A stretch of 58,139 nt of DNA from Bacteroidales bacterium (GTDB lineage: Bacteria; Bacteroidota; Bacteroidia; Bacteroidales; P3), in assembly GCA_017616895.1 (NCBI GenBank), contig JAFZXE010000014.1:1-58139 (forward strand), written 5' to 3'. Numbering within the stretch: position 1 is the first letter of the stretch; each line of letters starts with the position of its first letter. Below the pieces are notes generated by a model. The model did no database searches and had not been told where the DNA came from. It was given only the letters and a program-made list of their open reading frames with translations. The translations under genes and the position numbers were made by a program. Below are positions 9,192-45,864 of this stretch, piece after piece.

Positions 9192-9296
9192 TAATTTTGA
9201 AAGTTGAATTTTGAATTTTGAAAATTGCTGACCATCGGCAACTGTTCGCTAAGCCTCACACTTAAAACTTACAGCTCACAGCTTAAAACTAATTCA
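9192..9296. repeat. Degenerate heptamer repeat after the barrel gene
   Basis: Starts 16 nt after the stop at 9175. Clear units are TAATTTT, GAAAGTT, GAATTTT, GAATTTT, GAAAATT (9192-9226), then weaker GCTGACC, ATCGGCA, ACTGTTC, GCTAAGC, CTCACAC, and again clear TTAAAAC, TTACAGC, TCACAGC, TTAAAAC (9262-9289). Phase is 7 nt throughout. Confidence 0.8.
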
Positions 9297-9314
9297 CCAA
9301 TTCAACCAAAACGC

Positions 9315-9345
9315 TTGCATATATAAAATAATATCGTATCTTTGC
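9315..9345 (+). promoter_or_regulatory. Promoter of rpsP
   Basis: TTG at 9315-9317, 19 nt spacer, TATCTTTGC at 9337-9345: a near-perfect Bacteroidetes promoter. The leader of about 47 nt is A/T-rich. Confidence 0.75.
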
Positions 9346-9396
9346 AATCCACTTATAAATAAACAATATTTTTAACAAATTAAAAATTAGAGCATT

Positions 9397-9957
9397 ATGC
9401 CAGCAAGAATGAGATTGCAGCGTCATGGAAAGAAGAATCAGCCCTTCTACCATATCGTTGTAGCGGATGGTCGAGCACCACGCGATGGAAGATTTATCGA
9501 GAAACTGGGTACCTACAACCCCCTGACAAACCCTGCCACCATTGTCCTGAACGAGGAGAAGGCCGTGCAGTGGCTTAAAAACGGAGCACAGCCGAGCGAC
9601 ACCGTTCGCCGCATCCTCTCCTATAAGGGAGTTCTGCTTCGCCGCCACCTCCAGATTGGTGTCGAGAAGGGCGCTATCACCCAGGCTCAGGCCGATGCCA
9701 AATTCAACGAGTGGAAACAGGCTAAGGACGCCAAAGTGGCCGGCGTGAAGAGCAGCGCAGACGCCGCCAAGCGCGACACCGCAAAAGCTCGCATGGAAGC
9801 CGAGCGTAAGCACAACGAGGCCAAAGCCGAGGCAGTGGCCGCCAAGTTGCGCGCAAAAGCTGAGGCCGAAGCAGCCGCAAAGGCTGAAACTGAGGCAGCC
9901 GCCGCAGCCGAAGAGGCTCCCGCAGCAGAGGCAACCGAAGCCCCCGCAGCTGAGTAA
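9397..9957 (+). CDS. rpsP: 30S ribosomal protein S16, long form
   Basis: 186 aa. The first about 80 residues are canonical S16 ([57 protein letters not shown]). The rest, about 100 residues, is a low-complexity Ala/Glu/Lys tail ([20 protein letters not shown], ending EAPAAE), typical of S16 in many Bacteroidetes. S16 assembles into the 30S subunit. Its neighbour rimM (290 nt downstream) encodes an S19-binding 30S maturation factor, the usual partner. The terminator at 10147-10179 separates the two transcriptionally. Confidence 0.97.
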
Positions 9958-10032
9958 GAAACCGTTTTGATTTAATTCAACGTTTTTCTTAAAGTATATG
10001 AACGGCATCTTTTCCACCTTCTCTCAGTTACA

Positions 10033-10122
10033 ATGGACACCCATTGCGCCTTCGATAAGCTGAAAAATCTGCTCGCCCATATCCATAATAAAATCCATCA
10101 ATTAAATCAAAACAGTTTCTAA
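10033..10122 (+). other. Possible 29-aa ORF between rpsP and rimM
   Basis: ATG at 10033 opens 29 codons (MDTHCAFDKLKNLLAHIHNK, then IHQLNQNSF) ending TAA at 10122. The composition looks helical and protein-like, but there is no promoter or homology that I recognise. Apart from this and the terminator the 288-bp gap 9958-10245 shows nothing. Confidence 0.2.
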
Positions 10123-10146
10123 GTTTTACGGATTATCAATGAAGAA

Positions 10147-10179
10147 AAGCGTGTCCCCGACCGGGATGCGCTTTTTTTT
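10147..10179 (+). terminator. Rho-independent terminator after rpsP
   Basis: GCGTGTCCC / GGGATGCGC (10149-10171) forms a 9-bp stem with two G-U pairs and is followed by eight T residues. Confidence 0.85.
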
Positions 10180-10245
10180 GTTGTCGTATATTAAAATGCA
10201 ACGTTTCCACGTTATAAGGACATAACGTAATGATGCAGTTGACTC

Positions 10246-10779
10246 ATGACTAAGGACGAATGTTATTATCTGGGACGCATCACCAAACCTTTCGGGTTCA
10301 AAGGCGAGATGGTGCTTTTCCTCGACGTTGACAACCAGGACGACTACGCAAGCCTCGACTCGGTGTTCGTAGAGATGAAGAACGGCTTGGTGCCCTACTT
10401 CATCAAGTCGCTGCGATTCAGCGGTAACAAGGCTATCGCTACATTCGAGGACTTGACGCCAGATCAGGCGGCATCGCTTGCCGGACACGATATGTACCTG
10501 CCGCTCGACCTGCTGCCGAAGCTTACGGGCAACCAGTTCTACTTTCACGAGGTCAAGGGTTTCCGCGTGGTGGATGACGAGTATGGCGACATAGGCGTGA
10601 TAGAGACGATAATTGAATATCCCGCACAGCCGCTTTTCCAAATCATGAACGGCACCACTGAAATACTCATACCTGTCATCGACGAGGTGATAAAAAAGGT
10701 TGACAGAGAGAATAAGACAATTTATATTTCAGCTCCTAACGGGTTGATAGACTTGTATATGAGCGGCAATATCAACTAG
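10246..10779 (+). CDS. rimM: 16S rRNA maturation factor RimM
   Basis: 177 aa, normal length. The N-terminal RimM domain opens with YYLGRITKPFGFKGEMVLFL; the PRC-barrel follows (FYFHEVKGFRVVDDEYGDIGVIETI, ILIPVIDEVIKKVDRENKTIYI, ending NGLIDLYM). It is a cytosolic factor that binds S19 and assists 30S head maturation. The DksA-like gene follows 76 nt downstream but has its own -7 box. Confidence 0.96.
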   Translation: MTKDECYYLGRITKPFGFKGEMVLFLDVDNQDDYASLDSVFVEMKNGLVPYFIKSLRFSGNKAIATFEDLTPDQAASLAGHDMYLPLDLLPKLTGNQFYFHEVKGFRVVDDEYGDIGVIETIIEYPAQPLFQIMNGTTEILIPVIDEVIKKVDRENKTIYISAPNGLIDLYMSGNIN

Positions 10780-10818
10780 TGTTGATAAGTATTGCCGGCA
10801 GATTGCACAAAAAACCTC

Positions 10819-10827
10819 TATTTTTGC
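10819..10827 (+). promoter_or_regulatory. Promoter -7 box of the DksA-like gene
   Basis: TATTTTTGC at 10819-10827, about 25 nt leader to ATG 10856. The -33 element is not clear (TTG at 10792 or 10803, neither ideally spaced). Confidence 0.55.
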
Positions 10828-10855
10828 AAACTAATAAATCAAAACACCAACGGTT

Positions 10856-11272
10856 ATGGCAAAGAAAGAAACAAAACAGGAGAAAACCTGCTACTCGCCA
10901 GAGGAATTGCAGGAATTCAAGGAGTTGATACTTAAGAAAATCGAGGAGGCAAAACGTAACCTCGACATGCAGCTTCAGGCCATGGCCGGCAACGAGAACG
11001 AGGCCAACGACACGGCTCCGACGTTCAAAACATTGGAGGAGGGCAGCAATGTGCTCTCAAAGGAGGAAAACGCACGTCTGGCAGCCCGTCAGCAGCGTTT
11101 CATCCGCGACCTCGAGGCCGCTCTTATCCGCATCGAGAACGGCACCTACGGCATCTGCCGCATCACGGGCAAACTCATCCCGAAGGAGCGCCTGATGATA
11201 GTGCCGCACGCCACAACCACGGTGGAGGGAAAGGAGATGAGCGGAAAAGGACCAAGAATTCAGAGAAGGTAA
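10856..11272 (+). CDS. DksA/TraR-family protein without the zinc site
   Basis: 138 aa. A Lys/Glu-rich N-terminus, a predicted coiled coil (residues 15-45 and 66-95) and a C-terminal finger-like segment NGTYGICRITGKLIPKERL...VPHAT identify the DksA/TraR family. The four zinc cysteines of classical DksA are reduced to one (Cys101; the pattern is C-x-x-T and later HATTT). Zinc-less members are common in Bacteroidetes. DksA proteins enter the RNA polymerase secondary channel and act with ppGpp on rRNA promoters; that role here is inferred from family. A strong terminator follows. Confidence 0.88.
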   Translation: MAKKETKQEKTCYSPEELQEFKELILKKIEEAKRNLDMQLQAMAGNENEANDTAPTFKTLEEGSNVLSKEENARLAARQQRFIRDLEAALIRIENGTYGICRITGKLIPKERLMIVPHATTTVEGKEMSGKGPRIQRR

Positions 11273-11286
11273 GCACATACTTTTAC

Positions 11287-11329
11287 AAAGAGGGAGGCTC
11301 CGTCAGACGAAGCCTCCCTCTTTGTTTTG
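11287..11329. terminator. Strong terminator, probably bidirectional
   Basis: Perfect 13-bp stem AAAGAGGGAGGCT / AGCCTCCCTCTTT (11287-11299, 11311-11323) with a T-rich tail. It lies between the converging DksA-like and ABC ATPase genes and may serve both. Confidence 0.9.
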
Positions 11330-11339
11330 TGCGGTATGG

Positions 11340-13112
11340 TCAAATTCTAGGTATCGCGTCGATTAGGCGCTTGGTGTATTCCTGTTGCGGGTGGGCGTAG
11401 AGTTCGTCGGCGTCGTTGAGTTCCACCATACGCCCTTTCTCCATAACCATGATGCGGTCGGAGAAGAACTTCACCACCGAGAGATCGTGGGTGATGAAGA
11501 GGTATGTGTAGCCGTATTTACGCTTCAGGTCGTTGAGCAGGTTCAACACTTGTGCCTGTACCGACACGTCGAGTGCCGACACGCTCTCGTCGCAGATGAC
11601 CAGTTCGGGCTTCACAATCAACGCCCTTGCTATGCAGACACGCTGGCGCTGCCCTCCGCTGAACTCGTGGGGATAACGTCCATATACGCTGCGGTCGAGT
11701 CCCACTTCCTCCAGGAGAGTGTTCACTGCCTCGCGTCGCTCGCTGTCTGTGTCGTAGATGTGGTGGCTGCGTAGCGGCTCGAGGATGGCGTCGCCTATGG
11801 TCAGGCGTGGGTTGAGCGACGAATAGGGGTCTTGGAACACTATCTGCATCTTGGTACGCAGATGGCGCAACTCTTTGCTTGAGAGTTTGTCGAGGGGCTT
11901 TCCGTCATACACCACCGTACCCGACGAATGCTCTATCAACTGTAGCAGCGACCTACCCAGTGTGGTTTTGCCGCATCCTGACTCGCCGACCAAGCCCAGC
12001 GTCTCGCCCCGATAGATGTCGAAGGTGATGTTATCGACGGCTTTCAGCTCCTGTGTCACCTTGCCGAAGATGGTCTTTTTTAGCGGGTAGGTGACGTTCC
12101 AGTCGCGAACTTTCAGCAACGGAGTTGCTGTCGAATTTTGAATTTTGAATTTTGAATTATGAATATCCGTCGGCTGATTGCTGACTGCTGGCTGCTCGCT
12201 ACTAGATAGGAAATCTTTTACTGTCGGCAGGCGTTCGGGTCGGCTGTCGAGCGGTGGACGGCAGGCGAGGAGTCCTTTGGTGTATGGGTGTTGCGGGTTG
12301 TGTAGTATCTGTTGAGTGTCGCCCTGCTCCACTATCTCGCCGTGGTACATGACGGCGATGTCGTCGGCAATCTGCGCTATCACCCCTAGGTCGTGAGTGA
12401 TGAAGATGATGGCGAGGTTGTGTTTTTTCTGCAGGTCGCGCAGCAGCTCGAGGATGGTCTTCTGCACCGTTACGTCGAGTGCGGTGGTGGGTTCGTCGGC
12501 TATAAGTATCGATGGATTGCAGACGAGCGCCATCGCTATCATCACGCGCTGTTTCTGACCGCCGCTTATCTCGTGAGGGTAGCTGTCGAATATCTTTTCT
12601 GGACGGGGCAGCAGCACTTCCTTGAAAAGCTCTATCACCCGTTCGCGAGCTTCTTTATGACTCACTTTCTCATGCTGCAGCAGCATCTCCACCACCTGTG
12701 CCCCGCATTTGTGGACAGGGTTGAGGCTGGTCATCGGCTCCTGGAAAATCATAGCGATATGGTCTCCGCGATAGTGGCGAAACTCATCTTCAGAGAGGGA
12801 TAGGAGGTCGATGGGGGAGGTGTGATCTGTGACCTGTGACCTGTGACCAGAATCGGACGGGGTGGACTTGTCGGACGGGTCGGACGGGGTTGAGAACCAG
12901 GCGTGTCCTGAGACTTTGGCGTTTTTAGGCAGCAAGCCCATGAGCGCAAGCGAACTCACCGACTTGCCCGACCCCGACTCGCCCACTATACCCAAGGTCT
13001 TGCCTCGATAGAGGGTGTAGTTCACGCCCTTCAACACCTGGCGGTAGTCGTCTTTCTGCTTGAACGAAACGCAGAGGTCGGTAAGTTCAAGAAGTTTGCT
13101 GTTTCCCATCAT
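11340..13112 (-). CDS. Fused OppD-OppF-type peptide ABC transporter ATPase
   Basis: 590 aa from ATG 13112 (a second ATG follows at 13109; frame is open to 13157 but nothing there resembles the family). Two complete ABC domains: domain 1 has GESGSGKS, signature SGGQKQRVMIAMAL and ILIADEPTTALDV; domain 2 has GESGCGKTT, SGGQRQRVCIARAL and LVICDESVSALDV. Both carry the OppD/OppF-style tails (HPYTKGLLACRPPL; HPQQEYTKRLIDAIPRI). It would power uptake of peptides or nickel-like substrates, but no permease or binding protein is next to it, common in Bacteroidetes. Two low-complexity in-frame inserts are encoded by heptamer-type repeats: one within domain 1 (before IDLLSLSEDEFR) and one in the linker between domains. 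Confidence 0.93.
   Translation of the reverse strand: MMGNSKLLELTDLCVSFKQKDDYRQVLKGVNYTLYRGKTLGIVGESGSGKSVSSLALMGLLPKNAKVSGHAWFSTPSDPSDKSTPSDSGHRSQVTDHTSPIDLLSLSEDEFRHYRGDHIAMIFQEPMTSLNPVHKCGAQVVEMLLQHEKVSHKEARERVIELFKEVLLPRPEKIFDSYPHEISGGQKQRVMIAMALVCNPSILIADEPTTALDVTVQKTILELLRDLQKKHNLAIIFITHDLGVIAQIADDIAVMYHGEIVEQGDTQQILHNPQHPYTKGLLACRPPLDSRPERLPTVKDFLSSSEQPAVSNQPTDIHNSKFKIQNSTATPLLKVRDWNVTYPLKKTIFGKVTQELKAVDNITFDIYRGETLGLVGESGCGKTTLGRSLLQLIEHSSGTVVYDGKPLDKLSSKELRHLRTKMQIVFQDPYSSLNPRLTIGDAILEPLRSHHIYDTDSERREAVNTLLEEVGLDRSVYGRYPHEFSGGQRQRVCIARALIVKPELVICDESVSALDVSVQAQVLNLLNDLKRKYGYTYLFITHDLSVVKFFSDRIMVMEKGRMVELNDADELYAHPQQEYTKRLIDAIPRI
12133..12202. repeat. Heptamer repeat inside the ABC ATPase linker
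   Basis: Ten phase-constant heptamers: GAATTTT three times, GAATTAT, GAATATC, CGTCGGC, TGATTGC, TGACTGC, TGGCTGC, TCGCTAC. They are translated (minus strand) into the Ser/Asn/Gln-rich linker between the two ABC domains (SSEQPAVSNQPTDIHNSKFK). Confidence 0.9.
12821..12889. repeat. Heptamer and 9-mer repeats inside ABC domain 1
   Basis: TGTGATC, TGTGACC, TGTGACC, TGTGACC at 12821-12848, then GTCGGACGG / GTCGGACGG near 12870-12887. They are translated into STPSDPSDKSTPSDSGHRSQ and VTDHTSP, an insert between GHAWF and IDLLSLSEDE of ABC domain 1. Confidence 0.85.
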
Positions 13113-13127
13113 AATAAAATAACTCGT

Positions 13128-13155
13128 TTGAATGAAAAATAATGTGTACATTTGC
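13128..13155 (+). promoter_or_regulatory. Promoter of rocD
   Basis: TTG 13128-13130, 16-nt spacer, TACATTTGC at 13147-13155. Leader about 30 nt to ATG 13189. It lies in the divergent gap with the ABC ATPase gene. Confidence 0.65.
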
Positions 13156-13188
13156 AAAAAATTTCAAAACATTTAAACTTAAAACAAT

Positions 13189-14409: not shown

Positions 14410-14434
14410 TTCCAATTTGTATAGATTGAATAGC

Positions 14435-14474
14435 GAGAGCGCCCATATACTCGGTATGTGGGCGTTCTCTTTGC
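14435..14474 (+). terminator. Terminator after rocD
   Basis: A 16-bp stem (14435-14450 with 14454-14469, two G-U pairs, 3-nt loop TCG) followed by TTTG. The T tract is short, so efficiency is uncertain. Confidence 0.65.
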
Positions 14475-14534
14475 TGGTTTGCTCGATACTAATTTCGCGC
14501 ACTCTGCGTTAATACATAGTCAAAACAGTCATCG

Positions 14535-15470: not shown

Positions 15471-16039
15471 GACGGCTGTTGGTGATAATGTTGCTGGTGT
15501 GCCTGTCGGCTGGTGCGAGTGCGCAAACAGACAAGGTATATAAGTCGCTGAAGGAAGTGAAACGCCCAGAGGACGTGTATATACTGAAGCTGACCTATAA
15601 GCGGCTGAAGGCGATACCGCCGGAGGTATTCACCTTTACCAACCTGCGAGAGCTGAATCTTGGCTGTAACTTCATCGACTCCGTGCCGCCCGAGATAGCG
15701 AACCTGAAACATCTGGAGGTTCTAAACCTTGAGCGCAACTGGTTGCACTATCTGCCCGACGAGATGGGGCAGCTGACGAATCTTGTGAAACTCGACCTCA
15801 ACCGCAACCCGCTGCAGGCACTGCCCGCCTCGATGGCGTCTCTGACGAGTCTTGAACGGCTTGTGCTGTGGTCAACAGGGGTGACGGAACTGCCTGTGAC
15901 CTTTGTGGCACTCGACGCAACACTGAAGCTGATAGATCTGCGCGAGTGCTACCTTACCGAGGAACAGATGGCGGCGATATGTGAGCTTCTGCCCAGCGTG
16001 AAGAAATATTGGAATTTGAGCTGTAATTGTGGAAAGTAG
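15467..16039 (+). CDS. Secreted leucine-rich-repeat protein
   Basis: 190 aa. Signal peptide MRRLLVIMLLVCLSAGASA. About five LRR units of 23 residues between residues 45 and 165 (LRELNLGCNFIDSVPPEIAN, LEVLNLERNWLHYLPDEMGQ, LVKLDLNRNPLQALPASMAS, LERLVLWSTGVTELPVTF). The C-terminus holds NLSCNCGK. LRRs of this disease-resistance-like type bind proteins; the partner is unknown. It lies between ribF (4-nt overlap) and an amidase gene (4 nt downstream), so the three form an operon, although no functional link is evident. Confidence 0.88.
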   Translation: MRRLLVIMLLVCLSAGASAQTDKVYKSLKEVKRPEDVYILKLTYKRLKAIPPEVFTFTNLRELNLGCNFIDSVPPEIANLKHLEVLNLERNWLHYLPDEMGQLTNLVKLDLNRNPLQALPASMASLTSLERLVLWSTGVTELPVTFVALDATLKLIDLRECYLTEEQMAAICELLPSVKKYWNLSCNCGK

Positions 16040-16043
16040 GGGA

Positions 16044-16862: not shown

Positions 16863-16870
16863 TGGTTTTC

Positions 16871-16926
16871 GTGAATAGTGAATAGGCAATAGTAGTTAGA
16901 GAATATCAGTCAGCAGTTAGATAACG
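16871..16926. repeat. Heptamer repeat between amidase gene and mutS2
   Basis: Eight phase-constant heptamers starting 8 nt after the stop: GTGAATA, GTGAATA, GGCAATA, GTAGTTA, GAGAATA, TCAGTCA, GCAGTTA, GATAACG. It ends 12 nt before the mutS2 start. Confidence 0.88.
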
Positions 16927-16938
16927 CTTCAAAAAATA

Positions 16939-19398
16939 GTGGATTCTTTGACAAACATTGAACATAAACTAGGATTTGACCGGATAAAGGAGATGGTGGC
17001 AGCACAATGCAGCAACGCGTTGGCGGCGCAGATGGCTCACGATATGAGTTTTCAAACGCACCACGACAAAATTGTGCGCGATCTGCAGCAAGTTGAGGAG
17101 TTCCGTCAGATAATGCTACTAGACAACAGCTTTCCCTCGCAGGACTTTACCGATATGACTTCCACGCTTGAGCGTCTGCGTATCGGCAACACCGTCATGG
17201 AGCTGCCAGAGATGTTCAACCTCAAGTGTTCACTTCACACAATTGCCGACTGTGTTAAGTTCTTTGCCCGCGACGAGGCGGTAGAAAAATATCCGCAGCT
17301 GCACGAGCTGGCATCGCATATTGCTCACGAGCCGCTGCTGCTGCGTACTCTCGACAAGACCATCGACGACAAGGGTGAAATATATGACAACGCTACGGAG
17401 ACACTGCACGATATCCGCCGACAGATGCTCCGCAAACGAGGAGAGGTCGATGCACAGCTTAGCCGTTCGCTCTCCCGCGCCAAACACGAAGGGTGGGCTC
17501 CTGAGAACGCTGAGATAACCATCCGTAACGGACGGATGGTGATACCGATGCTCGACACCCACCGGCGCAAGATTCGAGGTCTCATACACGATGAGTCGGC
17601 AACCCGTCAGACCGCATACCTAGAACCTTCGGAGGTGGTGGAGCTGAACAACGATTTGCGGGAATTGGAATTTGCAGAAAAACACGAGATTCAGAAGATA
17701 ATTCTTCGTATATGCGACCAGATAAGGCCCCGCATAGACACTATGGTCAACGACTATTGGGTGTTGGCACGCTTTGACTTTATCCGTGCAAAGGCTTCGT
17801 TTGCCCTGCGCTTGGGTGCTGCGGTGCCGCGTGTGACGGGCAAACCTATGATGGATTGGCTTGATGCAAGACATCCGCTGCTTTATCTGCAACGCATGGA
17901 ATCGGGTGGGGGAGATGTCGTGCCGTTCAACCTTAAGCTCGATGCCGACAATCGCATTCTCATCATCTCGGGACCCAATGCCGGAGGTAAATCGGTATGC
18001 CTGAAAGCCATCGGCTTGATACAGTATATGCTACAATGCGGTCTGCCTGTTCCTTGTAAGGATACCAGCGAGTTCGGCGTGTTCGACAACCTTTTTATTG
18101 ACATCGGCGATGAACAGTCGATAGAGTCGGACCTCAGCACATATACATCACATTTGCAGAACCTGCGTTGTCTGCTTGATGTTGCCGATGAACATACACT
18201 TTTTCTGCTCGACGAGCTGGGTGGCGGAACAGAACCACGCTCTGGATGCGCTATCGCAGAGTCTTTGCTTGAAGAACTGTGCAGAAGGGGTTCGTTCGGT
18301 GTGGTGACAACCCATTTCGCCGACCTTAAGTTGCTGGCCGATCGTCACGATGCAATCATTAACGGTGCAATGCTGTTCGACACCGACAATATGCGTCCGC
18401 TATACCGCCTCGCTGTGGGGCATCCAGGCTCGTCGTTTGCATTTGAGATAGCCACCAATATCGGTTTCCCGAAAGAAATACTTGATGCAGCGGGTCAAAA
18501 GGTCGGACACGAGATGCTCAACTTTGAACATCAATTGCAGCAGATAGAACTCGATAAGCAGGAAATAGCCCGCAAGCAGGCAGAACTGGATGCTGCTGAC
18601 AAGTTTCTTAATGAGGTTATAGATAAATATCAGACGCTGAGCGACGACCTGGAGGCTCGCAAGCGCGAGATACTTTCGAAGGCACGGTCAGAGGCGAAAG
18701 AGATAGTGGCTGGAGCAAACCGAGCGGTGGAACAGACTATCAGCGACATCAAAAAAGCACAAGCCGAACGACAAAAGACTATTGAAGCCCGCGAGCGGCT
18801 GAAAAAGAAGGCAGAGGAGTTGGAGGTTAGCAGTCGGCAGTCGGCGGTCAGCAGTCAGCGGTTAGCGGAAAGTAGTCGGAGTAAGAATATTACTCCTATT
18901 AATCAGACTTCTTTGGTGGACAAACAACCAATCGCTGTCGGTGACATCGTCAAACTCGTTGACATGGACTCCTACGCCCAGGTGGTAGAGTTGAAAGGGA
19001 AGAAGGCTGTGGTGGAGAGCAATTCGGTGCGTATGACCATCGCCCTCGACCGTCTTGTGAAGACCGAGAAGAAAAATTTCCCCGTGGAGAAATCGTCGCA
19101 GAAGGGTGGCCGCTTCCAGTCGATATACGACGACATAAACGAGAAACGCAAATATTTCAACCCCACACTTGACCTGCGAGGTCATCGAGCAGAAGAAGCG
19201 TTGTCTGAACTTCAGCATTTCCTGGACGAAGCACAGCTGCTGGGTGAGCATGAGTTGCGAATCCTGCATGGCAAAGGCTACGGGATACTGAAAACTCTCA
19301 TACGAGAGCAACTGCAAGCAAACAAAGAGGTTCAGACGTTCCATTCCGAGCGTCTTGAACTAGGCGGCGACGGAATCACCGTGGTGCATCTGAAATGA
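16939..19398 (+). CDS. mutS2: MutS2 family protein with Smr domain
   Basis: 819 aa with a GTG start at 16939; the N-terminus DSLTNIEHKLGFDRIKEMV fits the family, so GTG is accepted. The ATPase has Walker A GPNAGGKS (residues 345-352), LFLLDELGGGTEPRSG (Walker B and signature) and VVTTHFADLK. A long coiled coil (about 530-630) follows, then KOW-like VGDIVKLVDMDSYAQVVEL and a C-terminal Smr domain with LDLRGHRAEEAL and HGKGYGILKTLI. MutS2 proteins act on branched DNA or collided ribosomes rather than mismatches. A 56-nt heptamer repeat encodes VSSRQSAVSSQRLAESSRS between the coiled coil and the KOW-like region, an insert not expected in the family. Confidence 0.95.
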   Translation: MDSLTNIEHKLGFDRIKEMVAAQCSNALAAQMAHDMSFQTHHDKIVRDLQQVEEFRQIMLLDNSFPSQDFTDMTSTLERLRIGNTVMELPEMFNLKCSLHTIADCVKFFARDEAVEKYPQLHELASHIAHEPLLLRTLDKTIDDKGEIYDNATETLHDIRRQMLRKRGEVDAQLSRSLSRAKHEGWAPENAEITIRNGRMVIPMLDTHRRKIRGLIHDESATRQTAYLEPSEVVELNNDLRELEFAEKHEIQKIILRICDQIRPRIDTMVNDYWVLARFDFIRAKASFALRLGAAVPRVTGKPMMDWLDARHPLLYLQRMESGGGDVVPFNLKLDADNRILIISGPNAGGKSVCLKAIGLIQYMLQCGLPVPCKDTSEFGVFDNLFIDIGDEQSIESDLSTYTSHLQNLRCLLDVADEHTLFLLDELGGGTEPRSGCAIAESLLEELCRRGSFGVVTTHFADLKLLADRHDAIINGAMLFDTDNMRPLYRLAVGHPGSSFAFEIATNIGFPKEILDAAGQKVGHEMLNFEHQLQQIELDKQEIARKQAELDAADKFLNEVIDKYQTLSDDLEARKREILSKARSEAKEIVAGANRAVEQTISDIKKAQAERQKTIEARERLKKKAEELEVSSRQSAVSSQRLAESSRSKNITPINQTSLVDKQPIAVGDIVKLVDMDSYAQVVELKGKKAVVESNSVRMTIALDRLVKTEKKNFPVEKSSQKGGRFQSIYDDINEKRKYFNPTLDLRGHRAEEALSELQHFLDEAQLLGEHELRILHGKGYGILKTLIREQLQANKEVQTFHSERLELGGDGITVVHLK
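18826..18881. repeat. Heptamer repeat inside mutS2
   Basis: Eight phase-constant heptamers: GTTAGCA, GTCGGCA, GTCGGCG, GTCAGCA, GTCAGCG, GTTAGCG, GAAAGTA, GTCGGAG. Translated in frame as a Ser/Gln/Arg linker around residues 630-648. Confidence 0.92.
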
Positions 19399-19427: not shown

Positions 19428-19483
19428 TCACAATAACACAATAACGCATTAACACAATAACACATTCACGCACTCATGCACTC
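19428..19483. repeat. Octamer repeat at the converging ends of mutS2 and the GT2 gene
   Basis: Seven phase-constant 8-mers: TCACAATA, ACACAATA, ACGCATTA, ACACAATA, ACACATTC, ACGCACTC, ATGCACTC. It covers the stop codon of the GT2 gene (19466-19468) and its last codons (ECMSA). Confidence 0.85.
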
Positions 19484-20362
19484 AACAAACTCCCCAAGCT
19501 TATAGAGGTTGAACTGTGTGAGTGTGAATCCTTGTCCATTTTTGAATCGTTTTTCAAGACAACGTTTGGTCAGTAGATGCCATAACTTCACTGCCCACAC
19601 CATTTTCAGTTTTTCAACCTTCCGATAAGCTCTCAACAGTCGCACAGAATCGTCGAACTCGGGCTCATTCAGAAAACGCCTTATATTAACTAGATTTTTG
19701 ATTGATTCTTTGGTTTTCCGTAGAAATTGTTCATTGGTGTCGATGTCACCGTTCACTACGGCGTTGTCGATATGAAGTATGTTTATGCCTGCTTGCTTGA
19801 GACGGAATCCGAAAAGGGTGTCCTCATGCCCATAACTGGTGATTCGTTCATCAAAACGTATGCGTTCAAATACATCGCGACGTATCATGAAGTTGTTGGT
19901 CATAAAAGACATGTATGGATTTTGGTTGCGCATGACAACATCTTTTTTTCTTTCGACGCGTTTGCCATACATCCATCGCAAGATGTGCTCTCGGTCCTTG
20001 AAGCTGTCGTCGTACGTGCTGCCACCGACCAATACATCGCTATTCTCGTTTAGATGTTCTGTATATTGTTCAAAAAACTTTTCAGGTATAGCCATGCAGT
20101 CGTCATCAAGGAACAGCAGCCAGTCGCCATTGGTATGATTGAGAAACAGGTTTCGTACCCGGGCACGCCCCACATTCTCGCCCAACACCACATATTTGGA
20201 ATGCTTTTCGATGTCTCGGTTCAACTCAACAAACTTGCTGTCCGAGCCGTCGTCGATACATACAATTTCAACTTCGATATCGGCACTTTCGGCTCGCTTC
20301 CGCAGGATTTCAACCAACGGACGCACGTCGTAGTTGTGTATGGGTATGCAGACGGAAATCAT
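19466..20362 (-). CDS. Family 2 glycosyltransferase
   Basis: 298 aa. GT-A fold motifs: MISVCIPIHNYDVRPLVEIL at the N-terminus, IVCIDDGSDSKF, GENVGRARVRN, and the metal-binding LLFLDDDCMAIP. FDERITSYGHEDTLFGFRL is the usual acceptor-side GHED motif. No membrane segment, so it is cytosolic or peripheral. It probably adds a sugar to a cell-surface glycan or glycoprotein; donor and acceptor are unknown. It lies 6 nt downstream of the YkvA-like gene in the same operon. The extreme C-terminus is encoded by the octamer repeat. Confidence 0.9.
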   Translation of the reverse strand: MISVCIPIHNYDVRPLVEILRKRAESADIEVEIVCIDDGSDSKFVELNRDIEKHSKYVVLGENVGRARVRNLFLNHTNGDWLLFLDDDCMAIPEKFFEQYTEHLNENSDVLVGGSTYDDSFKDREHILRWMYGKRVERKKDVVMRNQNPYMSFMTNNFMIRRDVFERIRFDERITSYGHEDTLFGFRLKQAGINILHIDNAVVNGDIDTNEQFLRKTKESIKNLVNIRRFLNEPEFDDSVRLLRAYRKVEKLKMVWAVKLWHLLTKRCLEKRFKNGQGFTLTQFNLYKLGEFVECMSA

Positions 20363-27390: not shown

Positions 27391-27425
27391 AATTCAAATT
27401 TCAGAATTCACAATTCGGAATTACA
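27391..27425. repeat. Heptamer repeat at the rpoD stop codon
   Basis: Five heptamers: AATTCAA, ATTTCAG, AATTCAC, AATTCGG, AATTACA. The last contains the rpoD stop (27421-27423). Confidence 0.75.
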
Positions 27426-36033: not shown

Positions 36034-36091
36034 AGTTTGAAACAGCCTGTTTGGGCATTTATTTTTCATATTTCAATTTTTATTCTGCAAC

Positions 36092-37411: not shown

Positions 37412-37478
37412 ACCGCATGTCAATAAATATTTATGGTGTGTCGGTATTCAAATAAAACCTATCAACGATAAAATAACT

Positions 37479-38363: not shown

Positions 38364-38380
38364 TAGTCATTTGGGAGACG

Positions 38381-38404
38381 AAAAATCTTGAGTCTCGGCT
38401 CAAG
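38381..38404 (-). terminator. Terminator of the frd-rhaD operon
   Basis: Minus-strand CTTGAG / CTCAAG stem (38404-38399, 38392-38387) followed by ATTTTT, about 25 nt past the rhaD stop. Confidence 0.7.
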
Positions 38405-38426
38405 TCTTAGAACTTACTTCTTAAAA

Positions 38427-39143: not shown

Positions 39144-39147
39144 TGTG

Positions 39148-39906: not shown

Positions 39907-39913
39907 AATCTTT

Positions 39914-40006
39914 GTGAATAGTGAAGTTGTTTATCTGTGAATAGTGAATTATTCGACAAATGTTATTACTGACCACTGACTGCTAACCACTGATCACTAA
40001 TTACTT
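39914..40006. repeat. Heptamer repeats between frdA and frdB
   Basis: GTGAATA, GTGAAGT (39914-39927), GTGAATA, GTGAATT (39937-39950), then ATTACTG, ACCACTG, ACTGCTA, ACCACTG, ATCACTA, ATTACTT (39965-40006). The last unit overlaps the frdA stop codon (40001-40003). It occupies nearly the whole intercistronic gap. Confidence 0.88.
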
Positions 40007-41938
40007 GTAATTCCTCTTTACGATTTGTATGTGTTCGTATTCAAGTGGTTCCTTGTGCAGGGTTTCGGTGGTGTCGGTGCCTTGATATTCCCATGCGCCC
40101 ACGAACATGAAGTTCTGGTCGTCGCGCTGTGTTTCTCCGTCCTCCGATTGGTGTTCCACGCGGAAGTGCCCTCCGCACGACTCTTCCCTCTGCATGGCGT
40201 CGGCCACGATAAGCTGTGCCAGTTCGAAATAGTCGGTCAATCGGCAGGCTTTCTCCAGCTCCGGGTTCATCTCCTCGGCTTTGCCTGGCACGAACACGTC
40301 GCGGCGGAACTCCTCTTTCAGCTTGGCGATTTCTTCGGCTGCCGTTGTGAGCGACTCTTTGCTGCGTGCCATGCCGCAGTACTCCCACATGATGCGCCCC
40401 AGTGCTTTGTGGAAGTGGTCCACGGTGTGGCTGCCGCCTACCGACAACAAGTCGTCAATACGTTTGCGCACTCGCGCCTCTGCTTCGTCAAACTCTGCTC
40501 CTTCGGGCTTAATCTTGCTCACATATATTTGGTCGGCCAGGTAGTTCTGCAATGTGTAGGGCAGCACGAAATAGCCGTCGGCCAGTCCCTGCATCAGCGC
40601 CGAGGCCCCCAGACGGTTGGCACCGTGGTCGCTGAAGTTAGCCTCGCCTGCGGCGAAAAGTCCGGGTATGGTGGTCTGCAGCTCGTAGTCAACCCACAGT
40701 CCGCCCATGGTGTAGTGCACGGCGGGATATATCATCATCGGCACCTCGTAGGGGTTCTGGTCGGTGATTTTCTGGTACATCTGGAACAGGTTGCCGTAGC
40801 GTTGCTCTATGACATCCCTGCCCAACCGCTCGATGGCGGATGCGAAGTCGAGATAGACGGCCAGGCCCGTAGGTCCTACACCGTAGCCAGCATCGCATCT
40901 CTCCTTGGCGGCTCTCGAAGCTACATCTCTCGGCACCAGGTTGCCGAACGCTGGGTAGCGTCTCTCAAGGTAGTAGTCGCGTTCTTCTTCGGCGATGTCC
41001 AGCGGCCCTTTCTCTCCACGCCGTATTGCCTCGGCGTCCTCTTTCTTTTTGGGTACCCAGATGCGTCCGTCGTTGCGCAGGCTTTCGCTCATAAGGGTGA
41101 GCTTCGATTGGTAGTCGCCGTGTACGGGTATGCAGGTGGGGTGTATCTGAACGTAGCATGGGTTGGCGAAAAAGGCTCCGCGTCTGTGACATGCCCATGC
41201 TGCCGACACGTTCGAGTTCATCGCGTTGGTCGAGAGGTAATAGACGTTGCCGTAGCCGCCTGATGCCACCACCACCGCATGTGCGGCATAGCGTTCGATA
41301 TCTCCTGTCACCAGGTCGCGCGCTATGATGCCGCGTGCCTTGCCATCTACCACAACGAGGTCCATCATCTCATGGCGTGTGTGCAGTTTCACCGAACCTC
41401 TGTTGATCTCACGGCTCAAAGCGCCGTAGGCACCCAGCAGCAACTGCTGGCCGGTTTGTCCGCGGGCATAGAAGGTGCGGCTCACCTGTGCACCTCCGAA
41501 CGAGCGGTTGTCCAATAATCCGCCATAGTCGCGTGCGAATGGCACTCCTTGCGCCACACATTGGTCTATGATGTTGCCGCTTACCTCTGCCAGGCGATAG
41601 ACGTTGGCTTCTCTGGCGCGGTAGTCACCGCCCTTGATGGTGTCTTTGAATAGGCGTTCTACGCTGTCGCCGTCGTTCTGGTAGTTCTTGGCTGCGTTTA
41701 TGCCGCCTTGTGCGGCTATTGAGTGGGCGCGGCGCGGCGAATCTTGCAGACAGAAGATATCTACGTTGAATCCCAGCGCGCCGAGCGATGCAGCTGCCGA
41801 AGCTCCGGCTAGTCCTGTGCCGACAACGATGATGTCGAGTTTGCGTTTATTCGCGGGGTTAACCAACTTCTGCGCCGCCTTGTAGCGTGTCCATTTCTCG
41901 GCCAACGGCCCTTCGGGTATATGTGAGTTTAATGTCAT
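40001..41938 (-). CDS. frdA: Fumarate reductase/succinate dehydrogenase flavoprotein subunit
   Basis: 645 aa. FAD-binding [20 protein letters not shown]; covalent FAD site [20 protein letters not shown]; active-site region [33 protein letters not shown] and [19 protein letters not shown]. The length (about 640) and organisation match the epsilon-proteobacterial/Bacteroidetes type B complex with a single cytochrome b subunit. It is the second gene of frdCAB and reduces fumarate to succinate in anaerobic respiration. Confidence 0.96.
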
Positions 41939-41976
41939 ATCGAGTGAATATAAAAATGTTTAGACATTCTAACCTA

Positions 41977-42915
41977 TCAACCTAAAAACACCACTATCGG
42001 TATCACCGCAAATCCGAGGCAGACAATCCAGGTGTATATCTTGCCGCATATCTCGATGGCGCGGTTGTATTTGTAGTTGTTCAGTCCCAGTGTTTGGAAC
42101 GCCGAGGGGAATGCGTGTGTCAGGTGGAAGAACAATATCACGAAGAACACCAGATACCCCAATGCGATATACCACACCTTGAACTTCTCACGTGCCATAT
42201 AGTAGAAGTCCGGCTCAATCTCGCAGTCGGGTATTGCGTCGAGTATCACCTCTTTGTCCTCTTTCGTGAGTTTGTGTATCCATATCATGTCCTTAGACAC
42301 ATTGCCTTCGGTATATGACCTGTTGATTATTCCCAAAAGCTTGAGCTTGCTTTCTATCTTGCCGAAGTAGTCGGCTGCTTCTGCATCGTTGGGGTCCATT
42401 TCCTGTCTCATCGCTTCGAGCAGTTGGTCGGGCGTCATCTGCATCTGGTTGGCCAGTTGAGCTATGCCGTTCATCTCGTCGTCCTGCAGCTTCTCGGTTT
42501 TCACCATGTATTCGCCTTTCACCACGCCGAGTTTCACCATGTAGAAATCATAGAAGTGCAGGCCGATGCAGGCTATGATGAGTATGCCAGTCCACACCAT
42601 GAATTTCGAGGTGGTGTGGGTGGTCGATTTCTGGGCTTCGTGGTAGCGCACAGGTCGTGCCATACGGTTGGTCACGGCGAGCCACAGTGTCAGCAGAATG
42701 TGCAGCGCTATCACTCCGAGCAGCACCACTTCGCACAGTTTCACCACGATGTTCGAACCCATGAAGTGGCAGAACGCGCCGTAGGCTGCGCCGCCGTCAT
42801 CTTTGAGTATCATAAGGTTCGCACACATGTGGAACAGCAGGAAAATCAGCAGGAAACCGCCCAGCAGTGCCACCGTGAGTTTCTTTGTAATCGAATGTAA
42901 TTTCGGTAAGGTCAT
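41977..42915 (-). CDS. frdC: Fumarate reductase cytochrome b subunit with enlarged loop
   Basis: 312 aa; the family (type B, diheme cytochrome b558) usually has about 200-255. Five hydrophobic helices at about 15-37, 57-80, 104-127, 246-265 and 290-311. Candidate heme ligands are His29 (LLFHMCANL), His72, His120 (GLHFYDFYMVK) and His264/His267 (FFHLTHAFPSAFQTLG). Between helices 3 and 4 a polar, acidic stretch of about 100 residues (130-237: KTEKLQDDEMNGIAQLANQM and further) is much longer than the usual short loop. It anchors FrdAB and oxidises menaquinol. Gap to pyrC is 38 nt. Confidence 0.93.
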   Translation of the reverse strand: MTLPKLHSITKKLTVALLGGFLLIFLLFHMCANLMILKDDGGAAYGAFCHFMGSNIVVKLCEVVLLGVIALHILLTLWLAVTNRMARPVRYHEAQKSTTHTTSKFMVWTGILIIACIGLHFYDFYMVKLGVVKGEYMVKTEKLQDDEMNGIAQLANQMQMTPDQLLEAMRQEMDPNDAEAADYFGKIESKLKLLGIINRSYTEGNVSKDMIWIHKLTKEDKEVILDAIPDCEIEPDFYYMAREKFKVWYIALGYLVFFVILFFHLTHAFPSAFQTLGLNNYKYNRAIEICGKIYTWIVCLGFAVIPIVVFLG

Positions 42916-42953
42916 ATTTGTGTTTTATAATATTTAACCGTAGGATTGTTATG

Positions 42954-44315
42954 TTATTTGAACTTAAGGGGTTGAGCTGTCCTGGCGGTCGTCGGCACGC
43001 CTCCTTCGGCTGCCAGCTCTCCGTTGACGAACACTTTTTCTATTCTTGTGTGCAACGTCTCGCCTTCCAATGGGCTCCAGCCGCACTTGTATAGCAGTTC
43101 GTCCTTTGTTATAGGGTGGGGGAGGGGATCTTCTTTCACCAATACCACGTCGCCCCAGTAGCCTTCGCGGATAAATCCTCTCTCCTTTATTCCGAATAGC
43201 AAAGCGGGGTTGTGGCACATTTTAGCCACAATCAGAGGCATCCAGGTCTGTATCACCTCTGTCTCAACTCTGCTTTCTGGGTTGAAGAAGGGCTCCATCA
43301 TCATCGCCAGCGAATGTTGTATGCTCGGTATTCCACTCGGCGCGTCGAAGTAGGGTTTCTGCTTTGATTCTAGGGGATGCGGTGCATGGTCGGTGCCTAT
43401 GGTGTCAATCAACCCGTCGTAAAGTGCTGCCCAAAGTGCCAGCCTGTCGTCGTTGCTCTTGATGGCAGGGTTGCATTTTATCTTGTTGCCCAGTTTCTCA
43501 TAGTCTCTGTCGTCAAACCACAGGTGGTTTGGCGTTACTTCGGCGGTGATTCGCTTCTCCTCAAGTGGTTTGTTGCTCAGCAAGTTCAGTTCGGTTGCTG
43601 TTGTCAGGTGTGCTACATGGAATCGTGTGCCGAGTCGGCGTGCTCTCTCTATGGCTTTGTATGTCGAGAGATAGCAGGCTTCGGTGTTGCGTATCTGCGG
43701 ATGCAATGCTGCGGTCTCTTTCTCCGTGCCTTGGTACTCCAGCTTGAAGTTCTTTAAGTTGGCCTGTACCACAGCTTCCTCCTCGCAGTGTGCCACTATC
43801 AGTTTCTTCGCCTCTGCGAATAGTTTCTCCAGTTTCGCCTCATCGTTTACCAGCATGTTGCCGGTCGAAGAGCCGAGGAAAAGCTTTATTGCGGCATAGC
43901 GTGAGGGCTCCAGTGTCAGCAGCCAGTCTATGTTCTCGTTGGTGGCCCCCACCATGAAGCCGTAGTTCACTGCCGACTTCTCGGCTGCCATGCGCTCTTT
44001 CTGCTCCAGCGCCTCCTGTGTCGTTGTCTGGGGTACGGTGTTGGGCATATCCACCACCGATGTGGTGCCTCCAGCCACTGCCGCACGCGACTCACTATAA
44101 AAATCACCCGCAGGGTTGCTTCCGTCACCGCCGTCTCTGAAGTGCACATGTGTGTCGATAACGCCGGGCAAAAGATAGCATCCCGTAGCGTCAATCTCTA
44201 TTGCGCCGTCACATCCAGAAAGGTCAAACGTGATACGCCCATCTTTAAGCAGCAACGGGGACTCTGTAATAGAGCCCTCGTTGACTATTTTGGCGTTTCT
44301 GATTATGTAATTCAT
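42954..44315 (-). CDS. pyrC: Dihydroorotase
   Basis: 453 aa. Amidohydrolase fold: metal ligands His56 and His58 in PGVIDTHVHFRDGG (the usual HFREPG reads HFRDGG), carbamylated Lys144 in YAAIKLFLGSSTGNML, His in LIVAHCEEEA and RFHVAHLTTATEL, Asp in IDTIGTDHAPHPLESK. Third step of UMP synthesis, cyclising carbamoyl-aspartate to dihydroorotate in the cytosol. It lies 3 nt after the WG-repeat gene and 38 nt before frdC. Orotate formation downstream in anaerobes can use fumarate or the quinone pool as electron acceptor, which could rationalise the neighbours; that link is inference. Confidence 0.93.
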   Translation of the reverse strand: MNYIIRNAKIVNEGSITESPLLLKDGRITFDLSGCDGAIEIDATGCYLLPGVIDTHVHFRDGGDGSNPAGDFYSESRAAVAGGTTSVVDMPNTVPQTTTQEALEQKERMAAEKSAVNYGFMVGATNENIDWLLTLEPSRYAAIKLFLGSSTGNMLVNDEAKLEKLFAEAKKLIVAHCEEEAVVQANLKNFKLEYQGTEKETAALHPQIRNTEACYLSTYKAIERARRLGTRFHVAHLTTATELNLLSNKPLEEKRITAEVTPNHLWFDDRDYEKLGNKIKCNPAIKSNDDRLALWAALYDGLIDTIGTDHAPHPLESKQKPYFDAPSGIPSIQHSLAMMMEPFFNPESRVETEVIQTWMPLIVAKMCHNPALLFGIKERGFIREGYWGDVVLVKEDPLPHPITKDELLYKCGWSPLEGETLHTRIEKVFVNGELAAEGGVPTTARTAQPLKFK

Positions 44316-44318
44316 TTT

Positions 44319-45704
44319 TTAGTAGGTCTGCTTCACCTTGGTCTCGTTGTATCCGTTGAATTTGGTTTTCGAAGCCCATTCGCGGCATGCTTTATATGCG
44401 TCGGACGAAGTTTCGTAGATATTCTGTATCACGAACTGCCCAGTATGGTCAATGCCTCCCCACTTGCCCTCCTTCTTGGCTGGCGCCACGCGGTTGTTCC
44501 AGGTCTCTATGAACGTGCGGGCATCCTGGAAGTGTGGTATTATCGACCATTCGCCTTTGAAGTTCACGTAGCCCCAGTAGCCAGTCTGCGGGTTCTTTAT
44601 TGGGTACTGCCAGTGTCCCAGCTCTTGGCGGGTGTCCCACTCTTGTCCGGCGCGTGTAGCCTCGCTTGAGAGGGTGAACACATGTTTGGTGATGGTGTTG
44701 CCATCATAGTCCACCACGCCCCAGAAATCGTTATATTTGGCAGCTGCAAAGTCGCCGGTGTCGTTCGGGAAGTGACACACATCCTGGTATTTCGGCTGAA
44801 TTGCCCACTCTCCGGCATAATCCACCCAGCCCCACAAACCTGAAGCAGGCTCGGTCACTGGCAGGCGCCATCCTTTGATGTCGCGTCCCTCGATTTTCTG
44901 CTTCAGAGCGTATGCAGCGTCCTCTTTCGAAAAGAAGATGCAGAAACTCACCTCGTTGCCTTTGCGGTCTATGTTGCCCCAGCGGCCCGAGCGTTTCACC
45001 TGTGCGTAGGGGAACATCCTGTCTTCGCCGAAGTGTCCGCAGTCTTGGAACTGTGCAGGGACCACCCATCGACCTAGGTAATCGACATAGCCCCAGCGTC
45101 CACGTTCGTTTTGAGTCGGGTATGTCCATGTGTCGTAGTGCAAGCCATGAATCCACTGTATGCCGGCTTCCGTGGCGTGCTCTTTCTCCATGAATACGGG
45201 GGCTATCACCATCGTGCCGCGGCGGTCTATGCAGCCCCAGCGGTTGTTCTGCTTCACAGGAGCAAAACTCTTCGGTTCTACGCCCACGAAGGTGCCGGCG
45301 TCCTCAAACTGTGGCTCGAATTTCCAGTCGCCGTAGTAGTTCACGAATCCCCACTTGCGGTCTGTAGGGTTCTTTACCGGGTAGAGCCACATGCCGGGTT
45401 CGTCGCCCGTCTGCCATTGGCGTCCACATTCCAGCGCCTCCTCCTTGGTCAGGAAGATGCAGCGCACTATCAGTTCGCCGCGGTTGTCGATACAGCCGTA
45501 GCGTTGGTCGAGGCGCACCACGGCGAATATCTTGCGGCCCTTCTCGAAGGGGTAGGCATACTGATATTGTGGTGCCACCAGCCACGAACCGTCGGGGTTC
45601 TTGTAGCCGTAGAGTTTAGTGGCTTCGTCCTGGAAGAGTGTCTGTGCCTGGCACATCGAGCCAAAGGCAAGAACAAAGCAGATGGCTGCTAGAAACTTTT
45701 TCAT
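44319..45704 (-). CDS. Secreted WG-repeat protein
   Basis: 461 aa from ATG 45704. Signal peptide MKKFLAAICFVLAFGSMCQA. About nine WG/KWG beta-hairpin repeats, often in alternation: KWGFVNYYGDWKFEPQFEDA, RWGCIDRRGTMVIAPVF, RWGYVDYLGRWVVPAQFQDC, RWGNIDRKGNEVSF, LWGWVDYAGEWAIQPKYQDV, FWGVVDYDGNTITKHVF, YWGYVNFKGEWSIIPHFQDA, KWGGIDHTGQFVIQNIY. Alternate repeats carry an inserted helix with KEEALECGRQW-type sequence. WG repeats are thought to form beta-propeller-like ligand-binding surfaces; target unknown. It is the first gene of the likely six-gene pyrC-frd-rhaD unit, 3 nt before pyrC. No clear -7 box is upstream. Confidence 0.9.
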   Translation of the reverse strand: MKKFLAAICFVLAFGSMCQAQTLFQDEATKLYGYKNPDGSWLVAPQYQYAYPFEKGRKIFAVVRLDQRYGCIDNRGELIVRCIFLTKEEALECGRQWQTGDEPGMWLYPVKNPTDRKWGFVNYYGDWKFEPQFEDAGTFVGVEPKSFAPVKQNNRWGCIDRRGTMVIAPVFMEKEHATEAGIQWIHGLHYDTWTYPTQNERGRWGYVDYLGRWVVPAQFQDCGHFGEDRMFPYAQVKRSGRWGNIDRKGNEVSFCIFFSKEDAAYALKQKIEGRDIKGWRLPVTEPASGLWGWVDYAGEWAIQPKYQDVCHFPNDTGDFAAAKYNDFWGVVDYDGNTITKHVFTLSSEATRAGQEWDTRQELGHWQYPIKNPQTGYWGYVNFKGEWSIIPHFQDARTFIETWNNRVAPAKKEGKWGGIDHTGQFVIQNIYETSSDAYKACREWASKTKFNGYNETKVKQTY

Positions 45705-45760
45705 TGTTATGTTAGTCATATTGGTTATATATCACTTATCTATTAGTTTATTTACGTAAC

Positions 45761-45864
45761 ACCTTCACATCTTCACATCTTCACACCTTCACCCCACTAA
45801 CACACTCCCTATCAACCTATCAACAAAACTAACGCATTAACACATTAACGCAATAACGCAATCA
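45761..45864. repeat. Octamer repeat array after the 3870-aa protein gene
   Basis: Thirteen phase-constant 8-mers: ACCTTCAC, ATCTTCAC, ATCTTCAC, ACCTTCAC, CCCACTAA, CACACTCC, CTATCAAC, CTATCAAC, AAAACTAA, CGCATTAA, CACATTAA, CGCAATAA, CGCAATCA. It ends 3 nt from the stop codon at 45868-45870. The word family changes along the array while the period does not. Confidence 0.92.

Follow-up and report, generated by a model that had tools for sequence, protein, structure and literature searches.

Period-7 and period-8 word arrays in a Bacteroidales genome: shared vocabulary, changing sites and a gap-edge polarity

Drifting tandem arrays in the window

The DNA examined here is contig JAFZXE010000014.1 (58,139 nucleotides (nt); assembly GCA_017616895.1) of an uncultured Bacteroidales bacterium of the gut, called the window throughout, and the elements in question are short tandem arrays in which a period of 7 or 8 nt is held while the repeated words drift. 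Genes were called with a hexamer-score caller, and their start positions are approximate. The arrays at the gaps between genes are as follows.

9192-9222, + strand: heptamer array of the TTTTGAA class, after the stop of a gene ending at 9175
9259-9300, + strand: heptamer stretch of ACTTAAAA/CTTACAG words, the C-rich part of the gap of the 9192 array, preceding the rpsP (Pfam) promoter region common to three species
16871-16926, + strand: heptamer array of GTGAATA and then GTCAGCA/GTTAGAT words, in the gap between a CN_hydrolase gene and mutS2
19429-19484, + strand: octamer array of CACAATAA/CGCATTAA words, in the gap between mutS2 and a convergent GT2 gene, spanning the GT2 stop
27391-27425, + strand: short heptamer/14-mer array of AATTCAAA/AATTCAC words that overlaps a sigma-70-family gene at its stop
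39914-40006, + strand: composite heptamer stretch of GTGAATA, GACAAAT, CTGACCA and CTAATTA words, by minus-strand genes (start 39906, stop 40001)
45759-45795, + strand: octamer array of ACACCTTC/ACATCTTC words
45808-45824, + strand: octamer doublet CCTATCAA
45830-45862, + strand: octamer array of TAACGCAT words; a few nt separate it from the stop of a gene encoding a 3870-aa SprB-repeat/Por_Secre_tail protein

The initial annotation had named six such stretches, and each was compared with 5,000 base shuffles of itself in a lag-identity test. All six exceeded their shuffles (p 0.0002 to 0.0006, values conditional on selection because the stretches had been chosen by eye for their period). At lag 7, identity was 0.54 versus 0.27 shuffled for 9192-9296, 0.51 versus 0.28 for 16871-16926, 0.68 versus 0.30 for 27391-27425 and 0.49 versus 0.27 for 39914-40006; at lag 8 it was 0.79 versus 0.32 for 19428-19483 and 0.71 versus 0.32 for 45761-45864. 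At the alternative lag (8 in the heptamer stretches, 7 in the octamer stretches), identity was no higher than chance. An unbiased scan of the window (periods 4-30, score threshold 13) returned five arrays of period 7, three of period 8 and two of period 11; the control, ten dinucleotide shuffles of the window, returned none at any period. The arrays at 16871 and 27391 and the heptamer part of 39914 fell below this threshold, and four further heptamer arrays, absent from the initial annotation and described below, lay inside genes. The six arrays are thus real, their words drift while the period holds, and they are comparable to heptamer repeats known elsewhere. Their reported distances to stop codons agree with the list of open reading frames (ORFs), and the 39914 array lies 8 nt from a start codon as well.

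Distribution in the genome and across the genus

The genome measures 2.61 Mb at 88% completeness, and 855 kb of it were sampled in total. Sample 1, the window plus 20 stretches (455 kb), was scanned by lag for periods 4-30; its array density is biased upward because the stretches were partly picked near hits of a genome-wide search for GTGAATA triples. Sample 2 was picked by spacing, yet includes some of these hits. Sample 1 contained 65 arrays of period 7, 39 of period 8, 29 of period 11, six of period 9, two of period 12 and none of periods 10 and 13. Most lay in gaps (49/65 for period 7, 37/39 for period 8 and 29/29 for period 11), coding sequence being 82% of the bases. The GTGAATA triple, with at most two mismatches, occurred 89 times in the whole genome and its reversed control did not occur. 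The initial annotation had called for a scan at periods 7, 8 and 11; the arrays occur throughout the sampled part of the genome and, unevenly, in its relatives.

Gap arrays of period 7 or 8 numbered 18.6 per 100 kb in the own genome (855 kb), 4.95 in 20 other species of the genus (one stretch each, 384 kb) and 1.15 outside the family, where 20 genomes were sampled (24 stretches, 435 kb). Density varies within the genus, and in another set of sequences gap arrays of all periods reached 32.9 per 100 kb in the own genome, 43.5 in G034, 29.0 in G002, 25.0 in G036, 24.0 in G012, 21.9 in G005, 15.0 in G023, 14.0 in G014, 8.3 in G016 and 0 in G031. The MutS2 relatives in the collection, 58 in number, come nearly all from uncultured Bacteroidales or Bacteroidetes assemblies, many of them from rumen or gut and including 'bacterium P3'. 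Triples of the type GTGAATN were present in 22 of 36 same-genus genomes and in 1 of 24 genomes of other families, and three species have, in its place, the backward reading of the word, with 31 (G002), 61 (G007) and 56 (G023) hits to the reversed control. The octamer triple (ACATATCA..) was counted 122 times in the own genome, 146 times in G034 and 89 times in G011, and occurred in 15 of the 36 same-genus and 0 of the 24 other-family genomes. It had no hits in G032 and G028, though by MutS2 (68% and 67%) these stand closer than G034 (63%); this departure from MutS2 similarity hints at horizontal spread or repeated loss.

A shared vocabulary and turnover at individual gaps

On average, 61% of the 12-mers of an array were found in another array of the own genome (217 arrays), and in eight other species 13-36% of array 12-mers were common to the own set, against 0.7-4.7% in unit-shuffled controls. 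The (GTGAATA)n arrays often terminate in GTGAATTGACAAATG, which was matched exactly at 41 places in the own genome, 11 in G014, seven in G034, three in G006, one in G020 and one in another family, with none for the reversed control; GTGAATNGACAAATG had exact matches at 41 places in the own genome and none for its reversed control. Among 23 sampled copies of the GACAAATG junction, 6 are followed by CTGAC/CTAAC words that keep an exact 7-nt spacing, and 2 reach CTTACAG words; the copy in L014 has the full register-locked run GTGAATA-GACAAAT-GTATTTG-CTGACCG-CTGACCA-CTTAAAA-CTTACAG. A transposon-borne element of the miniature inverted-repeat (MITE) or repetitive extragenic palindromic (REP)-like kind, with heptamers amplified inside it, would fit the common junction at 41 places and the recurrent long matches between gaps. 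However, constant ends were not seen by eye in the 23 sampled junction copies, and the Y1 transposase (PF01797) had no match in the 88%-complete genome; we consider such an element quite improbable.

Gene order near mutS2 is largely kept in L029, L030 and L084, the exception being the GT2 gene, which was found in neither L030 nor L084. At the rpsP gap, promoter and leader are alike in the window, L029 and L084, and the arrays differ in words. The gaps before rpsP and before mutS2 carry arrays both in the window and in L029, the nearest species found; of the 169 array 12-mers of L029 at these two gaps, 0 recurred in the corresponding gap of the window, and 76 recurred in own-genome arrays elsewhere. 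The rpsP-gap array of L084 gave 0/65 in the window gap and 11/65 in own arrays. A third L029 array has 44 of its 85 12-mers in own arrays, and here sharing in place is impossible because the matching window gap is 5 nt long. Gap lengths vary: gap 16039/16044 measures 5 nt in the window, 152 in L029, 34 in L030 and 29 in L084, and the gap before mutS2 measures 86, 187, 35 and 48 nt, respectively. To judge from the few gaps compared, whole arrays are gained or lost at some of them, and the words of an array are not inherited in place; rather, the genome keeps the vocabulary.

These comparisons bear on an explanation that the initial annotation had offered, continued slippage with mutation, in which every array would have grown and drifted locally out of the sequence already present. 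The drift of words along an array at constant period is consistent with it, and PMC4692102 ties heptamers to polymerase slippage. Against it stand the same words at many unrelated loci and the L029 result (0/169 in place, 76/169 elsewhere). Slippage at each site is not supported as the whole story because gap words are unrelated between close species, yet the vocabulary recurs elsewhere in the genome, and we regard it as fairly unlikely.

A separate observation concerns L018, where identical GTGAATA-type arrays (8565-8594 and 9482-9528) stand ahead of the starts of two similar neighbouring genes. The adjoining coding sequence and the sequence past the array differ, and identical arrays amid differing flanks suggest recent copying or conversion.

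Placement relative to stop and start codons

According to the initial annotation, the arrays are placed at stop codons. Within 16 nt of a stop we found 61 of 145 arrays, when random placement in the same gaps gave 45.1 +/- 4.8 and reached 61 in 0 of 1000 trials, a 1.35-fold enrichment; near starts there were 46 of 141 arrays against 40.3 expected. The second sample alone had 20 of 53 arrays near stops, as a bare count. Along tandem gaps, array position was roughly flat with a dip in the last tenth. When strands were counted by word class in tandem gaps, the stop-bearing one (G-rich for most classes) was almost never seen on the start side (2:32) and was about as frequent as the other on the stop side (37:27); 66 arrays were unassigned and lie outside the counts, and the TTTTAAG class has stops on both strands. 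The enrichment at stops holds weakly, and the counts do not support stops as the special site. Concentration there was rejected, given the 1.35-fold enrichment and the near-flat position along tandem gaps, and no support was seen for a function of the arrays at stops.

A stop-codon barrier, in which periods not divisible by three place stops in all frames after genes, would use the stop that GTGAATA, TTTTGAA and similar words include in their cycle, and the modest enrichment near stops agrees with it. However, the stop-bearing strand is hardly favoured where the barrier would act, and all three frames are stopped in 51 of 81 arrays in the sense direction and in 41 of 81 in the antisense direction. 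We rejected the three-frame barrier as the main cause on the 37:27 count and consider it very unlikely.

A hairpin-like motif, GTGCGTGCCCGCACAGGGC, was also noticed directly after stops (e.g., L011:718-1005, L014:711-864 and L023:6026-6205). It is possibly a terminator-like repeat, and its 12-mer GCGTGCCCGCAC was present in 18 of 477 gaps.

Polarity of the arrays and flip tests

The arrays follow a polarity rule: an array richer in G than in C tends to sit in the left half of its gap, and one richer in C than in G in the right half. Arrays with equal G and C being omitted, the rule was followed 81:14 in the exploratory sample and 44:17 in the held-out sample (p=7e-4); a joint count with its own set of periods gave 125:28 (tandem gaps 104:25, convergent 13:1, divergent 8:2). 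The non-array sequence of the same gaps showed almost no G/C skew by half. In other species of the genus, polarity was 108:49 after 10 duplicates were removed (convergent 5:2, divergent 8:3; 50 of the 58 MutS2 loci, those over 12 kb), and 29 same-genus genomes alone gave 82:36 (convergent 4:1, divergent 3:3). Neighbouring arrays formed 37 pairs in 477 gaps; 13 pairs had equal skew and 24 had opposite skew, all 24 running from G-rich to C-rich.

Arrays were also flipped computationally. For arrays no more than 60 nt from a start, flipping took the average RNA folding energy of -9.1 kcal/mol down to -19.5 kcal/mol, with deeper folding in 42 of 48 cases, and it raised the number of ATG, GTG or TTG codons in the 48 start-side arrays from 26 to 360. 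Flipping after stops had no effect (39 weaker, 38 stronger of 79).

Three further explanations were weighed. The first is transcription insulation, in which C-rich, G-poor RNA made by transcription entering a gene from outside loads Rho, so that gene edges are guarded both ways. It is consistent with a polarity that tracks the gene edge and not orientation (convergent 13:1, divergent 8:2) and with the 24 of 37 neighbour pairs of opposite skew, all from G-rich to C-rich. On the other hand, the convergent and divergent counts are small, with 5:2 and 8:3 in other species. Rho prefers pyrimidine-C pairs, and several of the C-rich words lack them. We find insulation doubtful and put it below the slippage account. 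The second is a telomere-like or retro end-extension, in which a reverse transcriptase adds GT-type repeats to the 3' ends of breaks, which are then joined, leaving a G-rich to C-rich order in each gap. The 24:0 order and a rule independent of gene orientation agree with this, but a search of the 88%-complete genome for RVT_1 had 0 matches, and leader constraints account for much of the signal; end-extension is very improbable. The third holds that the arrays are regulatory, their words being read by a protein that binds DNA or RNA (MacGregor's proposal for TAACTGA), with species differing through a changed preference of the protein. A vocabulary common genome-wide and partly genus-wide, the other words of other species (such as the backwards word of G002, G007 and G023) and the strong start-side orientation (2:32) argue for it; the occurrence of arrays within coding segments, gap arrays present in one species and missing in its neighbours, and genomes that each hold several unrelated classes of words and several periods argue against it. 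We judge a regulatory role to be unlikely.

Arrays inside genes

The four window arrays found inside genes are the following.

12133-12164, - strand: in-frame heptamer array, sense TTCAAAA, encoding IHNSKFKIQN; it lies between the oligo_HPY and second ABC_tran stretches of an ABC transporter gene
12173-12203, - strand: in-frame heptamer array of the AGCAGTC class, peptide SSEQPAVSNQ, adjoining the 12133-12164 array
12821-12848, - strand: in-frame heptamer array of the GGTCACA class, encoding GHRSQVTDH; it falls in a variable part of the ABC transporter gene
18830-18868, + strand: in-frame heptamer array of the AGCAGTC class, encoding SRQSAVSSQRLA; in MutS2 it lies between the domains MutS_V and MSSS

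These arrays occupy variable segments of the ABC transporter and MutS2, where relatives are shorter or different; in the 12821-12848 region, L029 and L084 show alignment gaps. Vocabulary words occur in frame within genes, and 25 of 25 assigned coding arrays lie on the stop-free strand, which is partly so by definition because a stop-bearing array would terminate the gene. Recurring peptides include QNSKFKIQNS, SSRQSAV and GHRSQVTD.

Period-11 arrays and other repeats

Two loci of the window carry period-11 arrays.

8165-8251, + strand: intergenic period-11 arrays CCGTATCAACA and ATACCCCTCCT
5538-5591, + strand: intergenic period-11 array GGTGGGAGTTG

In relatives, some period-11 arrays are built as two inverted arms, for example four GTCGTTGTCCA-type units followed by their reverse complement, which could form long hairpins (L047:6078-6174, L050:7456-7546, L040:16911-17000, L064:12508-12596, and L079:7164-7254 and 15547-15637). 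A hairpin of complementary arms is clear for these arrays in five relatives; it was rejected for the arrays of the own genome, whose opposite-skew neighbours mostly differ in words and periods. Some long gaps of 0.35-1 kb have a mutual identity of 75-85% (L015:18442-19301, L016:4732-5758, L027:5650-6607, L162:386-1056, L164:3196-4104 and L170:17157-17504), and several of these are full of period-11 words such as CCTACTTTTCT.

Two repeats of other kinds were observed. The window contains a 74/148-bp tandem repeat at 57681-57983 that includes inverted repeats, CCCCACAC...GTGTGGGG; the 3870-aa gene starts about 200 nt downstream of it. A non-tandem repeat of about 165 bp, 80-92% identical and perhaps a decayed gene fragment, lies at 9958-10245 of the window and at L159:479-645, L163:2265-2650, L164:3196-4104 and L028:10291-10513.

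Roaming word arrays as a proposed explanation

The explanation that we find best is that the arrays roam: they would be a dispersed population of short tandem-repeat words of periods 7 and 8, with period 11 a partly separate set, spread by copying between loci together with slippage and filtered by selection. On these sequence comparisons we give it about an even chance. New arrays would most likely arise by non-local copying, through brief template switching or templated insertion while DNA is replicated or breaks are repaired, and a switch may start in one array and finish in another. Polymerase slippage would lengthen the copied arrays, and point mutation would make their words drift. The counts above describe where and how copies survive, and selection is the probable cause. 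Within genes the stop-free strand alone is seen, and after stops the constraint appears weaker. The start side carries almost solely the C/A-rich strand, probably because the opposite strand would make the leader fold and would add spurious ATG, GTG and TTG codons. Roaming arrays would require no function of their own at stop codons.

Several points weigh against this explanation. Copying between loci was not directly seen, as the comparison was of species and not of strain pairs, and a biased polymerase that re-created the words independently would likewise yield a shared vocabulary. The fixed junction phrases are less regular than at first look, as the 6/23 and 2/23 counts at GACAAATG indicate. 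As for a mobilising enzyme, searches of the 88%-complete genome for RVT_1 and Y1_Tnp (PF01797) returned 0 matches, other transposases not being searched. The polarity is not uniform either: two of seven window arrays violate the rule, 39914-40006 narrowly (G-C = +1) and 45759-45795, which is C-rich in the left half of its gap, and five obey it (9192-9222, 16871-16926, 19429-19484, 27391-27425 and 45830-45862). Period-11 arrays show no polarity (13:15), and G+T skew in the held-out sample (37:23, p=0.09) fell short of significance. In addition, convergent gaps are polar too (13:1), which lies beyond the leader explanation; other species have 5:2 there.

A fuller version of the roaming-array explanation is that the 7- and 8-nt words copy themselves from locus to locus through short template switches, that inheritance of the vocabulary goes by genome (and patchily by genus, perhaps with horizontal transfer) and not by site, and that polarity is a general survival filter against leader folding and spurious starts that needs no quadruplex. 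We hold this version tentatively, as possible but short of probable. It would explain the odd polarity rule simply. The same words feed in-frame peptides into proteins such as MutS2. Vocabulary, which the genome keeps, and site, which turns over fast, are usually treated together, and these data separate them. As arrays across the genus differ in amount and words, their birth, copying and loss could be traced gap by gap.

Comparison with known repeat systems

Cyanobacterial short tandemly repeated repetitive (STRR) sequences are degenerate heptamers at many loci, and the present arrays resemble them in this general description. Paludibacter belongs to the Bacteroidales. The initial annotation knew of no described equivalent in that order, a statement at odds with MacGregor (2015, PMC4679880), who reports TAACTGA heptamers in Beggiatoaceae and Cyanobacteria as well as in five Bacteroidetes, among them Paludibacter, which has two sets. 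This was the sole report of heptamer repeats in Bacteroidetes that we found. As described there, the TAACTGA repeats are, like the present arrays, direct heptamer repeats that lie mostly in gaps and are patchily distributed, and one Bacteroidetes genome has forward copies before starts and one reversed set right after a stop. They differ in having one dominant word; TAACTGA doublets numbered 0 in the 855 kb sampled of 2.61 Mb. Two other systems show partial likenesses. Rickettsia palindromic elements are likewise inserted in frame in protein genes, but are elements of about 150 bp in defined families (PMC10969869), whereas here there are tandem words without fixed ends. Borg tandem repeats likewise evolve fast and lie in gaps and ORFs, but Borgs are archaeal extrachromosomal elements with A-rich repeat units (PMC9879509).

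The closest likeness is to Xanthomonas and Nostoc, for which Rehm et al. (2015, PMC4692102) describe G-rich, quadruplex-forming heptamers, GGGAATC / GGGGA(C/T)T, in intergenic positions nearer the ORF on their 5' side, whatever the ORF orientation. As reported there, those repeats, like ours, are spread over the genome, vary in length and sequence among relatives, follow the same edge rule, are commoner between aligned than divergent ORFs and sometimes form inverted pairs. Heptamers are enriched head to tail in non-coding DNA here as well, and the G-rich strand points away from the nearest ORF, judged by gap halves and not by the exact nearest ORF. A likeness of our words to GGGAATC/GGGGATT was discarded, as by hand estimate it is expected by chance given the number of words and rotations. 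Unlike the narrow, quadruplex-capable word set described there, the present arrays use many words and a period of 8 besides, and four or more G3 or C3 runs occur in 4 of 217 arrays of period 7 or 8, so that they are not quadruplex-capable as a class; set against the Xanthomonas and Nostoc heptamers, both presence and words at a gap turn over here, in the few gaps compared.

Overall, the present arrays are best read as a variant of the intergenic heptamer repeats known from Xanthomonas, Nostoc and Beggiatoaceae. They are ordinary in kind, being intergenic short tandem repeats, and unusual in behaviour, with a genome-level vocabulary, turnover of sites and an orientation filter strongest on the start side. 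Heptamer arrays recur in distant phyla, and PMC4692102 and PMC4679880 leave their role open; if the reading of roaming words proves true, the edge-pointing polarity seen in Xanthomonas and Nostoc (PMC4692102) would need no quadruplex.

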